64,000 nt of DNA, from positions 385,667 to 449,666 of the forward strand of contig NZ_GG703818.1 of assembly GCF_000156395.1 (NCBI RefSeq), read 5' to 3'. Position 1 is the stretch's first letter; each line of letters opens with the position of its first letter. Source of the stretch: Providencia rustigianii DSM 4541. GTDB lineage: Bacteria > Pseudomonadota > Gammaproteobacteria > Enterobacterales > Enterobacteriaceae. Shown here in pieces: positions 4,986 to 50,885 of the stretch. The position numbers were made by a program, and so were the translations under genes. The notes beneath the pieces are model-generated. The model had not been told where the DNA came from, did no database searches, and saw nothing but the letters and a program-made list of their open reading frames with translations.

Positions 4986-6716
4986 ATGCGTACTAGCAAA
5001 TATCTGCTCTCAACTCTAAAAGAGACCCCTGCGGATGCAGAAGTTATCAGCCATCAGCTGATGCTGCGTGCAGGAATGATCCGTAAACTTGCTTCTGGTC
5101 TGTATGACTGGCTACCCACTGGCGTACGTGTACTACGTAAAGTAGAAAACATTGTTCGCGAAGAAATGGAAAATGCAGGTGCTATCGAGGTATCTTTACC
5201 CGTAGTTCAGCCCGCTGATTTATGGCAAGAAAGTGGGCGTTGGGAACAATACGGTCCTGAGTTGCTACGCTTTGTTGATCGTGGAGAGCGTCCATTTGTT
5301 CTGGGTCCAACCCATGAAGAAGTTATCACTGATTTAGTGCGTAACGAAATCACTTCATATAAACAATTACCTTTGAATTTATTCCAAATTCAAACAAAAT
5401 TCCGTGATGAAGTACGCCCACGTTTTGGTGTGATGCGTTCACGCGAATTTATCATGAAAGATGCCTACTCTTTCCATACCAGCCAAGAGTCATTGCAAGA
5501 AACTTATGATGCAATGTATGAAGCCTACAGCAAAATTTTCACACGTATCGGCTTTGATTTCCGTGCAGTACTCGCTGATACGGGCTCAATAGGTGGAAAT
5601 GCATCCCATGAATTCCAAGTCTTAGCGCAAAGCGGTGAAGATGATGTCGTTTTCTCTACCGAATCTGATTTCGCCGCAAATATCGAGTTTGCTGAAGCTG
5701 TTGCACCGAACGTCCAGCGTGCTGCTCCTAGCGAAGAGATGCACTTGGTTGATACACCAAATGCAAAAACCATTGCTGAATTGGTCGAACAATTTAATTT
5801 ACCGATCGAAAAAACCGTCAAAACGCTGATTGTTCACGCGAAGAAAGATTCTGGTCATACTTTAGTTGCCCTATTAATTCGTGGCGACCATGAACTGAAC
5901 GAGATCAAAGCTGAAAAACATCCGTTAGTCGCTAGCCCATTACAGTTCGCAACTGAAGAAGAAATTCGCCAAGCTATCAATGCCGGCCCGGGTTCTTTAG
6001 GTCCAGTCAATATGCCACTGCCAATTGTTATCGACCGCAGTGTCGCGGTAATGAGTGACTTTGGTGCCGGTGCAAATATTGATGGTAAACATTACTTTGG
6101 TATTAACTGGGAACGAGACTTACCATTACCAGAAACTTACGACCTGCGTAATGTTGTGGTTGGCGATCCAAGTCCGGATGGCAAAGGCACACTATTAATT
6201 AAGCGTGGTATTGAAGTCGGTCATATCTTCCAGTTAGGTACTAAGTACTCAGAAGCGATGAAAGCTTCAGTGCAAAACGAGGAAGGTCATAACCAAATCG
6301 TCACGATGGGTTGCTATGGTATCGGTGTTACTCGTATCGTTGCAGCAGCTATCGAGCAAAGCCATGATGACCGCGGTATCATATGGTCAGATGCTATCGC
6401 ACCTTTCCAAGTTGCGATTCTACCAATGAATATGCACAAATCTTATCGCGTGAAAGAAGTTGCAGAAAAACTCTATGCCGACCTGAAAGCTCAAGGTATT
6501 GACGTGATTTTTGATGACCGTAAAGAGCGTCCGGGTGTGATGTTTGCAGATATGGAATTAATTGGCGTTCCATACACTATTGTTATTGGCGACCGTAACT
6601 TAGATACCAACCAAGTAGAATATAAATCACGTCGTAGTGATGATAAAGCACTGGTTGGTTTAGATAATGTCGTTAGCTTCTTAAAAGAAAAATTAGCGAC
6701 AAATTTGCGTAAATAA
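4986..6716 (+). CDS. proS: Prolyl-tRNA synthetase
   Basis: Charges tRNA-Pro in the cytoplasm. At 576 residues it is the bacterial-type enzyme (E. coli 572): class II motif 1 near residues 40-75, motif 2 with [16 protein letters not shown] around 140-155, the inserted editing domain (roughly 225-405) that hydrolyses mischarged Ala-tRNA, motif 3 [13 protein letters not shown] near 445, and a C-terminal anticodon-binding domain from about 475. It is a single gene between trmO and the convergent nlpE, followed by an intrinsic terminator. Confidence 0.98.
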
Positions 6717-6737
6717 TTACCAAAATTGTCTCTATAA

Positions 6738-6782
6738 CAAAAGGCTCAGAATTCAGTATTCACTGGTTCTGAGCCTTTTTTA
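6738..6782 (+). terminator. Intrinsic terminator of proS (possibly bidirectional)
   Basis: Stem AAAAGGCTCAGAA / TTCTGAGCCTTTTT with an A-rich 5' flank and T-rich 3' flank lies between the convergent proS and nlpE, so it could end both transcripts. Confidence 0.88.
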
Positions 6783-36360: not shown

Positions 36361-36699
36361 TTATCCGCCTGTTACAGTAAACTGAAAATAGCTATCGAGC
36401 TCACGTAAATGGTCAAGAAACGCAATAAACTTGCCATCTTCATCATCTTTGTAAACTTCTTCAAAATAAGGGGCAATCGCAAAATTGCTCGGCAATGTTG
36501 CTCCCTGCTCAATCATTTCATTCAAACGAGGGATTAGGATCCATTGTAACCACTGTGCGGCCTCCATTGTATCTATCGCAAAAGGTTCCACACTTTCAAA
36601 TGCTTCAGGGCTTGGCGGAACTTCATCCCATAAAGATTGGGCTTTCATCTCAGCTTCTAGATGCTCTAATTTCTCTAAGATGCGTTGTTCGATATTCAT
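36361..36699 (-). CDS. yqcC: YqcC family protein
   Basis: Conserved protein of unknown function (DUF446), 112 residues (E. coli 109). Helix-rich and acidic, with the family segments ELRLREHL-like N-terminus (here QRILEKLEHLEAEMKA), FAIDTMEAAQWLQWILIPR and LRELDSYF at the end. First gene of yqcC-truC-yqcA. In E. coli csrB is its neighbour; here a VirK-family gene intervenes. Confidence 0.92.
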   Translation of the reverse strand: MNIEQRILEKLEHLEAEMKAQSLWDEVPPSPEAFESVEPFAIDTMEAAQWLQWILIPRLNEMIEQGATLPSNFAIAPYFEEVYKDDEDGKFIAFLDHLRELDSYFQFTVTGG

Positions 36700-36966: not shown

Positions 36967-37866
36967 ATGGGACTCTTAAAGCAGTGGCGTCAGCAAAATA
37001 AGACGTGGAAATCTTTCACTAATAAATATGTAGAATTAAAAAGAAAGATCCGAATTGCCAAGCTGCCTTCGCAAGAATATCAGCAGTATCAATCGATGTG
37101 TGAAAATTACCAAAGTTCTCGACTAGCGGCAGTGATTGATGGTGTTCCTCACTTTATTGAGCGCCCAATTAATAAATACCTGCATAAAGCTTGGAGTGGA
37201 AAACAGAAATTACTCACAGCAAGTTACACTCTCGATTTAATTGAGAAAACATTCAAACCAGAAGCTATTGAAGCGATGTTTTCAAATAATCGCTCAGGAT
37301 TAACCATCGCTAATATCGAACTTAAATCCGGCGATTTTGCTCAATTAAAACTGATTTATTCCCAGTATCCACGAGAGGGTGACCTTTCTGTTCATCTACT
37401 TAATGAACTGGGTGACGAAATTTATCTAATGAGTTTTTCATTTGGTGAGAAAGGTCAGCTGTATGTGTGCTCTTTGCAAGGGCCTTCCACGGAACAGAGT
37501 GTGGAACAAGTAAAATCTATCACGAAACAAATGCATGCGATGAGACCTAAAAACCTTCTCATGTCGGCAATCTATGCTGTTGCTGCCTTTTTCCAAGTCA
37601 AATCAATCCAAGGGATTTCGAATGATAGCCATATTAAAAGCCAACATTTAAAATCAAGCTATAACACTTTCTGGGAAGAGTGTGGGGCAAGCTTAACTTC
37701 TGATGGTTGGTACCAACTTCCATTGCAAGAACCTACTCGCGATATTGAATCAGTCAAAAGCCAACGCCGTTCTGAATTTCGTAAACGTGAAGCCCTACGG
37801 GAAGCGATGTCCCAGAGTATTATCGAATCGTTGAACCAAAACTCTCGTTCAATAGACCATCAATGA
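36967..37866 (+). CDS. VirK/YbjX family (DUF535) protein
   Basis: 299 residues with the DUF535 layout: a charged N-terminus, then YTLDLIEKTF near residue 85, and the diagnostic C-terminal block with SSYNTFWEECGASLTSDGW followed by a Lys/Arg-rich KSQRRSEFRKREAL. VirK of Shigella and Salmonella and YbjX of E. coli are members; they affect envelope or virulence traits, but the molecular function is unknown. No signal peptide; one weakly hydrophobic stretch near 195-215. The ribosome site is weak. It has been inserted, relative to E. coli, between yqcC and the csrB position, and is divergent from yqcC. Its flanks are very AT-rich. Confidence 0.85.
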   Translation: MGLLKQWRQQNKTWKSFTNKYVELKRKIRIAKLPSQEYQQYQSMCENYQSSRLAAVIDGVPHFIERPINKYLHKAWSGKQKLLTASYTLDLIEKTFKPEAIEAMFSNNRSGLTIANIELKSGDFAQLKLIYSQYPREGDLSVHLLNELGDEIYLMSFSFGEKGQLYVCSLQGPSTEQSVEQVKSITKQMHAMRPKNLLMSAIYAVAAFFQVKSIQGISNDSHIKSQHLKSSYNTFWEECGASLTSDGWYQLPLQEPTRDIESVKSQRRSEFRKREALREAMSQSIIESLNQNSRSIDHQ

Positions 37867-37904
37867 TAAAAAAAGTAGCCAGTTAAAACCTAACTGGCTA
37901 CTTA
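37867..37904 (-). terminator. Strong intrinsic terminator of the csrB-position RNA
   Basis: Stem AAGTAGCCAGTTA / TAACTGGCTACTT (13 bp, 5-base loop) followed on the minus strand by seven T residues (37874-37868). It begins one base after the VirK-family stop codon. The T-run is on the minus strand, so it ends a leftward transcript, not the VirK-family mRNA. Confidence 0.9.
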
Positions 37905-38008
37905 TCTATTTACCAACTTGCATCCTGCAAAACGACATCCTGCCGTCTAACATCCTGTCAAAACAATTTAGCGGATCAATTTAATCTGCTAGGTTATCCA
38001 TTACCTTG
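37868..38008 (-). ncRNA. Putative compact Csr/Rsm-type regulatory RNA at the csrB position
   Basis: On the minus strand three CAGGATG motifs lie within about 45 bases. Each sits in a small hairpin that shows GGA in the loop: ACA-GGA-TGT (37950-37958), GGCA-GGA-TGTC (37934-37944) and TTGC-AGGAT-GCAA (37918-37930). A fourth GGA lies in the loop of GGT...ACC (37992-38005). A strong terminator follows. These are the features of CsrA-sequestering RNAs, and csrB lies between syd and yqcC in E. coli. The 5' end is uncertain: a -10-like TATACA (38015-38020) gives about 140 nt, but the RNA may reach back to about 38,045-38,090, where GGACAGGG resembles the E. coli CsrB 5' end. It has far fewer GGA motifs than the roughly 18 of E. 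coli CsrB. Confidence 0.65.
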
Positions 38009-38158
38009 TTTTTATGTATAAAAAGCCAAACAAACTTACCCTGTCCAGCCCGCTAAGAATGTATTAAATCCATTAATGAAACAACCTAGCTCTTCAAACT
38101 AAACTATCTAATAAATAACGGCGAAATCTTAAATTGATAGTAACGCCATGAAATTAAA

Positions 38159-38181
38159 AGTGAAATAATTATCATTTCACT
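38159..38181. repeat. 8-bp inverted repeat downstream of syd
   Basis: AGTGAAAT(7 nt)ATTTCACT, perfect arms. On the minus strand it is followed by CTTTTAATTT, so it may be the syd terminator; it could also be an operator in front of the csrB-position RNA. Confidence 0.5.
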
Positions 38182-38217
38182 GAAATTAAAAATAATTAAG
38201 CGATAGCTTAGCTAAAT

Positions 38218-38235
38218 TGTAGGCTTAGGCTTACA
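38218..38235 (-). promoter_or_regulatory. GacA/UvrY-type binding palindrome
   Basis: The minus strand reads TGTAAGCCTAAGCCTACA, an 18-bp imperfect palindrome that matches the Gac box TGTAAG-N6-CTTACA at 11 of 12 fixed positions. It lies 20 bp after the syd stop and about 200 bp upstream of the predicted start of the Csr-type RNA, a distance similar to the upstream sites of csrB and rsmZ. Confidence 0.7.
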
Positions 38236-38254
38236 GACTTTCGTCCTTTATCTC

Positions 38255-38815
38255 TTACCCCTGAGATGATAGTGCAGGCTTCAGTTGTTGAATAAAGCTC
38301 GCAAGATTTGTTGCAAGTACTCGCCGTTCCTTACTACCAAATTTTTCCAAAATAATTTCTCCGGTCAAATTACACATAGAAATCATGTCTAGCTCAGAAT
38401 CTAATGTCCCGATAAATAACGTTGGAGATAGCTTAAGTCGTTTTTGGGTAACTAAATGACCAATAAGATTTTCTTGCAGGCGAATAAAATCATCTTCATT
38501 CCAAACTTGCAGTAAATTGAGATGAATATCTTCAAATGTCGCACTGATATCCCCGGCAAATTGAGAGGTATAAAATGCATGGATATCATCTTGCAATTGG
38601 ATATCCAACGCGGCTGCAACTCGGCTTAAATTTTTTTCCTCTAAAGGAAATGGCTGAGGCTCCCAATAAACCACATCCTCCCCGGTTCGAACAATACAAG
38701 GAGAAGGGACACCATATAGGTCACTCGACTCTGGAGGAAATCCGGTTACTTCTTGCCATTTTGAAACATACTGCAAGGTAAAATCTTTAATTAAATCAGA
38801 AATTATTGTATTCAT
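38255..38815 (-). CDS. syd: SecY-interacting protein Syd
   Basis: Cytoplasmic protein that binds SecY and is thought to survey faulty SecYEG translocons. It is 186 residues (E. coli 181) with the family segments LYGVPSPCIV near 29, FYTSQFAGDI near 85 and the strongly conserved DDFIRLQENLIGHLVTQKRL near 110. Divergent from queF. Confidence 0.94.
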   Translation of the reverse strand: MNTIISDLIKDFTLQYVSKWQEVTGFPPESSDLYGVPSPCIVRTGEDVVYWEPQPFPLEEKNLSRVAAALDIQLQDDIHAFYTSQFAGDISATFEDIHLNLLQVWNEDDFIRLQENLIGHLVTQKRLKLSPTLFIGTLDSELDMISMCNLTGEIILEKFGSKERRVLATNLASFIQQLKPALSSQG

Positions 38816-49474: not shown

Positions 49475-49631
49475 ATTCTTAGTTGTATTCTTTCTTACCT
49501 ATTCCTTTAAAGCTTCAATTCGTTTTCTACTCTTTCAATTTCCAACAAATTACTTTTTATCAATACGTTACTTTTTTGCTAATAAAAAAGGCGGCGCACA
49601 TTGCTGCTCACCACCTTCTTTAATTTATTAA

Positions 49632-50885
49632 TTATTTATTACGGATTGCTAACTCGCCACCATTGCGGAAATAGGCTTTAATTCCTTGGAAAATTGACTC
49701 TGCCATTTGCTGTTGGAATTTAGCAGTCTTTAACTTACGCTCTTCTTCCAAGTTACTAATAAAGGCAGTCTCCACCAAAATAGACGGAATTTCAGGGGCT
49801 TTTAATACTGCGAACCCAGCCTGATCAACCCGATTCTTATGCAGTCTATTTACTTTTCCCATACGTTTAAGGACTTCATCCCCAAACTTCAAACTGTCAT
49901 TGATTGTCGCTGTTTGCACCAGATCTAACATGGTATGGTCGAGATAAACATCGCCGCTTTTACTCACCCCACCGATTAAGTCAGCTTCGTTCTGGGTTTG
50001 TGCAAGATAACGTGCCGTATTACTGGTGGCACCTTTTGTCGACAACGCAAACACCGATGAACCATTTGCTGAGCGGTTAGTAAAAGCATCCGCATGAATC
50101 GATACAAAAAGGTCTGCCTGCATTTTTCTGGCTTTTGCTACCCGCACTTTCAATGGAATAAATACATCCTCATTACGTGTCATATAAGCACGCATTTTTG
50201 GATCTTTATCAATCAATGCTTTCAATCGACGGGCAATTTGTAAGACTACGTCTTTTTCGCGTGTCTTATATTTACCAATTGCACCGGGATCTTCACCGCC
50301 ATGACCAGGGTCAATCATGATAATGATCGGTCGGTCAGTCCCTGCTTTACCCGGTTTTTTCGCCTGAGCAGGCATACTCTCTTCTAAATCCCCTTTATTG
50401 TAATCCTCAAGCAATGCCAATAAAGGATCATCGTTGGTTTCTACCCCTTTACCCGGATAAAAATCAATGACCAAACGATGTTTAAATTCTGAGACGGGAG
50501 CAATAGTAAAGAATCGAGGGCTAACCTTATTCTTTACTTCAAAAACTAAACGTACTGTTTTCGGATCAAATTGCCCAACCCGAACTAATTTTAAGTAAGG
50601 GTCACGAGACTGAATCTGGCTTCCCATATTTTTTAGTACGTTATTTAACTGTACGCCTTCCAAGTCAACGACAATGCGCTCAGGATTATTCAGCACGAAT
50701 TGGCGATACTTTAAAGGGACGCTCGATTCGAGTGTAATACGGGTATAACTCGAGGCTGGCCAAATGCGCACGGCAATAATGCTGCTACTCGCAGCAAAAC
50801 CGAATGGGCTGACACTCAGCAGCATAACCGCAGCCGCACCTTGTAATAGGCGGCGTTTTGATGGGCTGTGATCTTGATGACTCAT
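49632..50885 (-). CDS. amiC: N-acetylmuramoyl-L-alanine amidase AmiC
   Basis: Zinc amidase that splits septal peptidoglycan during daughter-cell separation, activated by NlpD. It is 417 residues as in E. coli. A twin-arginine signal ([15 protein letters not shown]) shows Tat export; an AMIN domain (about 35-140) targets the septum, and the Amidase_3 domain (about 190-410) has zinc ligands in [10 protein letters not shown], the Glu next to TREKD, and SIHADAF, plus ETAFISN. The ATG at 50885 gives MSHQD; a TTG one codon upstream is unlikely. Confidence 0.96.

Follow-up and report, generated by a model that had tools for sequence, protein, structure and literature searches.

In Providencia rustigianii DSM 4541, the minus strand between syd and a convergent DUF535 gene carries what we consider likely to be an ortholog of csrB cut down to some 182 nt with about five CsrA sites, which would sequester CsrA and whose upstream box is most likely bound by a UvrY that has lost its phosphorylation site. 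A wider reading, for and against which the evidence is about evenly balanced, is that in Providencia and one sister genus BarA is gone and UvrY, under purifying selection, has turned into a pseudo-receiver regulator that needs no phosphorylation and governs a five-site CsrB through an E. coli-like promoter, with CsrA titration set by factors other than BarA signalling. CsrB serves in textbooks as the model of a protein sponge with many sites, and BarA-UvrY as the system that drives it. Providencia would offer a natural experiment across the genus: with GGA sites cut to about one quarter, no kinase detected and the phosphosite of the regulator replaced, it would reveal how much of the sponge design is indispensable and in what way a response regulator might act unphosphorylated. 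A further outcome is a covariance model (R1) for an RNA missed by Rfam in a genus of opportunistic pathogens.

The course of events that we infer from the sequence covers transcription, the 5' end, CsrA binding and sequestration, and the binding and effect of UvrY at csrB. Transcription would start from a promoter laid out like that of E. coli csrB and end at the RNA's own terminator. The transcript would offer CsrA five loops, one with AGGG, one with UGGAU and three with (C)AGGA, and the binding of perhaps two or three CsrA dimers would keep CsrA away from mRNAs, each RNA molecule having less capacity than one of E. coli CsrB. The most likely protein at the upstream box is the local UvrY ortholog, in which the phosphorylation Asp is missing and for which no BarA partner was detected, and control of csrB would be phosphorylation-independent, acting through the level of UvrY or another signal.

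Gene order at the csrB locus

All positions refer to the window, i.e. the whole stretch of 64,000 nt that was analysed (contig NZ_GG703818.1, 385,667 to 449,666). The gene order in the window is ppnN, queF, syd, the RNA, the convergent DUF535 gene, yqcC, truC and yqcA, where ppnN, queF, truC and yqcA bear names presumed from their position compared with E. coli. The upstream neighbour syd (38255..38815, minus strand) was identified with Pfam PF07348 and NCBIfam NF003439, yqcC (36361..36699, minus strand) with Pfam DUF446 (PF04287) and the convergent gene (36967..37866, plus strand) with Pfam PF04393 at 185 bits; the label VirK for the latter stems from the original prediction. In E. coli K-12 the order is syd, csrB, yqcC. 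The DUF535 gene has no counterpart between the latter two there and counts as an insertion between the RNA and yqcC, and the RNA lies between syd and yqcC, as expected of the CsrB/RsmB family (RF00018), with this one gene inserted.

The RNA gene was placed at 37868..38049 on the minus strand (about 182 nt) and scored 163 bits with R1, its sequence being among those used for building that model. A search with Syd returned 23 loci, ten of them from Providencia. Comparison of the syd-yqcC interval across the genus, which had been suggested along with the original prediction, recovered box, promoter and RNA in 24 of 24 genomes. In P. stuartii NCTC11800 (locus L010) the syd frame read from the start of the match reaches a stop after 60 codons and the match runs on, possibly a frame break or an assembly error.

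The UvrY-type box and its probable regulator

An inverted repeat of the UvrY/GacA type, TGTAAGCCTAAGCCTACA, is predicted at 38218..38235 (minus strand) by its conserved place, with its centre at -177. The E. coli repeat bound by UvrY, TGTGAGAGATCTCTTACA, is centred at -183/-182 of csrB according to the excerpted text of PMC4682653. The two loci are alike in having such a box near -180 (-182 vs -177 here) at the same distance after syd and in the same promoter register. The box centre lies at -176 or -177 in 23 Providencia genomes and at -173 in the remaining one (G212), giving a predicted UvrY-type repeat some 180 bp upstream of the start in 24/24. The Providencia box no longer has the inner palindrome seen in E. 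coli. Genome-wide, box-like sequences with at most one mismatch occurred 26 and 30 times, against 45 and 46 for the reversed control; as they are no commoner than the control, the box is identified by its conserved place and not by rarity. The exact box occurs at two places in the genome, and the second was rejected as a site with its own sponge, its surroundings reading as coding (sbcC-like by eye). From the box-like places (56 strand matches vs 91 in the control), 22 loci were scored for GGA on both strands; one of them, L109, had up to 7 GGA per 180 nt and no CAGGA. The arrangement of box and promoter recurs in the sister genus (G128), in G138 and in G082; the same pattern did not detect it in G160, G012 and G032.

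The best UvrY match in the genome (L125:1453-2139, outside the window; 38% to E. coli UvrY) stands directly before uvrC, as in E. coli, and shares with the UvrY/SirA/GacA family a conserved DNA-binding domain of NarL type. With the NCBIfam UvrY model (NF007018) it reached 182 bits, below the cut-off of 280 (E. coli UvrY, 450), and this was still its best family match. It departs from the family in that the stretch corresponding to E. coli DVVLMDMSMPG is NIILISSEHCHF, with Ser replacing phospho-Asp54. Across 15 Providencia genomes, position 54 was Ser or Asn in all, Thr82 was replaced by Asn in 14 and by Ser in one, and position 104 was never Lys; G128 has Asn, Ser and Ile at positions 54, 82 and 104. 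All three residues are kept in seven outgroups (G138, G113, G012, G032, G160, G180 and G147). G093 keeps Asp54 and Thr82 and does not keep Asp8, Asp9 and Lys104, G082 has lost Asp8, Asp9, Asp54 and Lys104, and in G154 and G111 UvrY was not found at 1e-25. For eight Providencia pairs, the receiver had a dN/dS of 0.04-0.23 and the DNA-binding part one of 0.00-0.15, with several synonymous distances above 1; the low values in both parts indicate a gene under constraint.

BarA was searched for in 27 genomes with the E. coli protein at E<=1e-60, a cut-off below which a diverged BarA could fall. At this threshold it was found in seven genomes, full-length in G032, G113, G180 and G147 and partial in G138, G012 and G160, and was found neither in any of the 15 Providencia genomes nor in G128, G093, G082, G154 and G111. 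The partial matches (L158, L159, L160 and L162, in G138, G160 and G012) lie in open frames of 786-792 aa. A simple tie between csrB shrinkage and BarA loss was rejected, since G147 combines a short (224-nt) CsrB match with full BarA and an intact UvrY phosphosite; it is also countered by G138, G012 and G160, which have CsrB matches of 254-287 nt and keep UvrY Asp54. In a uvrC tree of 22 rows, Providencia and G128 were grouped at 92/96 (with the fork drawn open), and G082 was not firmly placed. The chromosomal csrA is intact in the genome; a second csrA copy (L037:1501-1686), amid genes that look phage-like by eye, was set aside.

That the altered UvrY still governs csrB is the boldest step of our reading, and is suggested by the conserved DNA-binding part, the conserved box and the purifying selection. 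It is possible, if on the whole doubtful, that the RNA is a CsrA sponge whose box is served by another regulator, or that UvrY represses csrB or has a different job. The loss of Asp54 and Lys104 and the score under the NCBI cut-off would fit such an account, as would the 23 other, weaker UvrY-like matches elsewhere in the genome and the increase of csrB in a P. luminescens uvrY knock-out described in the portion of PMC4683029 consulted, which does not fit a simple activator; a DNA-binding part this well conserved and a box kept in 24/24 genomes speak for UvrY itself. The open-access literature, screened by titles and abstract openings, contained no description of a UvrY without its phosphosite or of a Providencia csrB, a screen that does not establish absence from print.

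Predicted promoter and extent of the RNA

The predicted -35 element TTGTTT (38079..38084, minus strand) and -10 element CATTCT (38056..38061, minus strand) are separated by 17 bp. In the 24 Providencia genomes the former reads TTGTTT or TTGTCT and the latter is always CATTCT. The counterpart in E. coli csrB (TTGTAA, 17 bp, GATTCT) is in register with these elements, and because the two promoters align, the start was placed at 38049. The extent first proposed, 37868..38095 (228 nt), was accordingly shortened to about 182 nt with a predicted 5' end near 38049.

We regard it as unlikely that the RNA is a 3' UTR or part of a longer transcript, either processed from the syd mRNA or begun at the conserved TTACTATC block, which lies some 80 nt farther upstream. 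The RNA does lie on the same strand as syd, with a conserved block, TTTCATGnnGTTACTATC, upstream, and a longer RNA from the TTACTATC block was our first guess, dropped after the comparison with E. coli. The stretch between the conserved block and the -35 element is, however, highly variable, the spacing of -35, -10 and box is that of E. coli csrB, and the 5' hairpin described below starts at the predicted start.

Between the UvrY box and the promoter, a conserved block at 38136..38165 reads TTTMACTTTTAATTTCATGnnGTTACTATC, and its TTTCAT is aligned in E. coli as well. The sequence AATGATAATTATT (38164..38176), also upstream of csrB, is partly conserved in the genus and resembles a Fur box.

Secondary structure and covariation

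The structure is a consensus on 20 distinct Providencia sequences (alignment A3), trimmed slightly by hand. On the minus strand it runs from a 5' hairpin with an AGGG loop through a UGGAU hairpin and three (C)AGGA hairpins to the terminator. The 5' hairpin (38025..38049) has ACAGGGU in its loop and its own GGA paired, with 94.3% of cells paired and double changes in 3/7 pairs. The UGGAU hairpin GGUAAUGGAUAACC (37992..38005) contains the fourth looped GGA announced in the original prediction, and its stem pairs covary (85.5% of cells paired, double changes in 3/4 pairs). The mini-hairpins that had been drawn around the CAGGATG motifs, with GGA in the loop, are borne out by covariation in CAGGAUG hairpin 1 (37948..37960; 94.1% of cells paired, double changes in 3/6 pairs) and hairpin 2 (37933..37945; 100% and 1/4 pairs). 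Hairpin 3, GCAGGATGC (37918..37930), is invariant in 20/20 sequences and, because it never varies, holds no covariation information. As in the CsrB/RsmB family, GGA thus recurs in hairpin loops, here in four GGA loops and one AGGG loop, far below E. coli.

For a structure derived from the same alignment and shuffles that do not remove relatedness, 56 double-change cells were counted vs 16.8 (sd 4.4) in shuffles, with 0/500 shuffles as high, and 13 pairs had a double change vs 6.7. Further pair types, a weak measure, numbered 34 vs 31.1 (24/500 shuffles as high), and 95.4% of cells were paired vs 17-45% with partners slid. The near-equal swaps U-A/C-G and A-U/G-C among the sequences at hairpin 1 argue for selection on the loop, despite the alignment-derived structure and the kinship left in the shuffles. 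The fold energy of the single RNA sequence had a z of -3.22.

The three 3' sites are spaced in steps of 15 nt. CsrA dimers bridge sites 10-63 nt apart with an optimum above 18 nt, as stated in the part of PMC7652899 available to us. The number of usable CsrA sites is uncertain, since hairpin 3 never varies, the 5' hairpin has its GGA in base pairs and steps of 15 nt fall short of that optimum; two or three putative dimers per RNA is a guess.

A decaying csrB relic, in which the box and some hairpins survive and CsrA titration is no longer meaningful, is very unlikely. Five GGA vs 22 in E. coli and a BarA kinase that was not detected would agree with decay, but the GGA hairpins are kept across the genus by compensatory changes and the promoter spacing is kept in 24/24 genomes.

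GGA motifs and terminator

The three CAGGATG motifs reported on the minus strand between syd and the VirK-labelled gene were located at 37957..37951, 37942..37936 and 37927..37921 (37 nt altogether). When the syd-DUF535 interval was shuffled 5000 times with dinucleotides preserved, three CAGGATG never arose, whereas three AGGA within 45 nt arose in 100/5000; the exact triplet is therefore far above chance, and the clustering of bare AGGA moderately so. Three spaced CAGGA occur at four places in the 3.98-Mb genome (reversed-pattern control, 0), and the other three places are within open frames of 324-481 codons, leaving the csrB-locus place alone outside a long frame. The RNA in the window has 5 GGA in 182 nt, compared with 22 in 369 nt in E. 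coli CsrB and 14 in 246 nt in CsrC.

The strong leftward terminator with seven T of the original prediction was likewise found: an intrinsic terminator at 37868..37903 on the minus strand, as CsrB/RsmB RNAs have, with a 14-pair stem (37903..37873) followed by seven T (U in the RNA). That the region is the terminator of the convergent DUF535 gene with chance GGA motifs, and nothing more, is barely credible, for although the stem also scores as a plus-strand terminator-like site, the U tract belongs to the minus strand, three CAGGATG were reached in 0/5000 shuffles and the GGA hairpins covary.

Rfam searches and comparison with known RNAs

The original prediction expected that models built on CsrB might miss the RNA, and they did. 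Rfam (4227 families) gave eight matches at E<=10 over 37600-38500, none of them a Csr/Rsm family, the RsmY, RsmZ and CsrC models included, and RF00018 had no match in the window. Csr/Rsm families were also absent from the five gathering-threshold Rfam matches of the whole window. A full-length csrB elsewhere, which the original prediction had named as evidence against itself, was not found in the organism's own genome with the Rfam CsrB and CsrC models, neither of which matched anywhere. With the same library, the positive controls E. coli csrB and csrC scored 380 and 279 bits. In a wide-family sample, Rfam CsrB was found in 123/198 genomes and in 0/2 of this genus (G090 included), and a scan at E<=1 had no hit in four more loci from Providencia or in locus L069 of the sister genus (G128). 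These negative results cover the Csr/Rsm families, and a sponge of another kind would escape them.

As the RF00018 model is not matched, though position and promoter are those of csrB, the RNA is called a CsrB variant and not a member of RF00018. It is like E. coli csrB in having syd upstream and yqcC downstream, GGA hairpins and a terminator, and unlike it in size and GGA number (182 nt and 5 vs 369 nt and 22), in the inserted DUF535 gene, in the lost inner palindrome of the box and in the missing RF00018 match. The much reduced CsrB originally proposed is supported by where the RNA lies, how its promoter is laid out, the arrangement of its hairpins and its conservation across the genus. RsmY and RsmZ of Pseudomonas are likewise small with few GGA, but the Providencia RNA has no match to their Rfam models. 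RsmY and RsmZ lie at a locus other than that of csrB. Judged by position and promoter, the Providencia RNA appears to be descended from csrB.

Photorhabdus asymbiotica has a short csrB (210 nt by coordinates) that is highly expressed, as far as the consulted portion of PMC4683029 goes. By that description it resembles the Providencia RNA as a short RNA at the csrB place, and its high expression makes expression of the Providencia RNA plausible.

Distribution in Providencia and relatives

BLAST with the RNA matched 23 of the 24 genus genomes. Covariance model R1 matched 37/297 genomes at E<=0.01; all 24 genus members were matched, the weakest of them at 1.1e-21. Sequences from 20 of the 24 had gone into R1, so that a match there is a foregone result, and three of the remaining four genomes are close to ones that had been used. 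The informative independent matches are G212 (1.1e-21, the genome missed by BLAST) and G128 of the sister genus (1.1e-16). Beyond these, R1 matched 12 genomes weakly (E 1e-5 to 0.01), and second matches in that range were seen within Providencia; all were taken as chance, as were two more matches inside the window (49779..49584 and 6654..6781).

The predicted RNA is 180-214 nt long and has 4-7 GGA across 23 measured genomes. The original prediction had held that loss of the CAGGATG motifs in related species would count against it. The GGA hairpins are kept, while all three exact CAGGATG are present in 6/23 genomes only (two copies in 16, one copy in one); the second loop is often AGGAAG or GGGAAG in relatives.

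Among the outgroups, the CsrB matches of G138, G012 and G160 were below the Rfam threshold; that of G138, where UvrY Asp54 is kept, was 254 nt long and scored 57 bits. The R1 matches of G093 and G082 lie away from the contig place of their syd locus. At the syd locus of G093 (L073), syd is followed by a very short stretch that has a terminator-like end, a few GGA and, by eye, no clear UvrY box, possibly an even smaller csrB.
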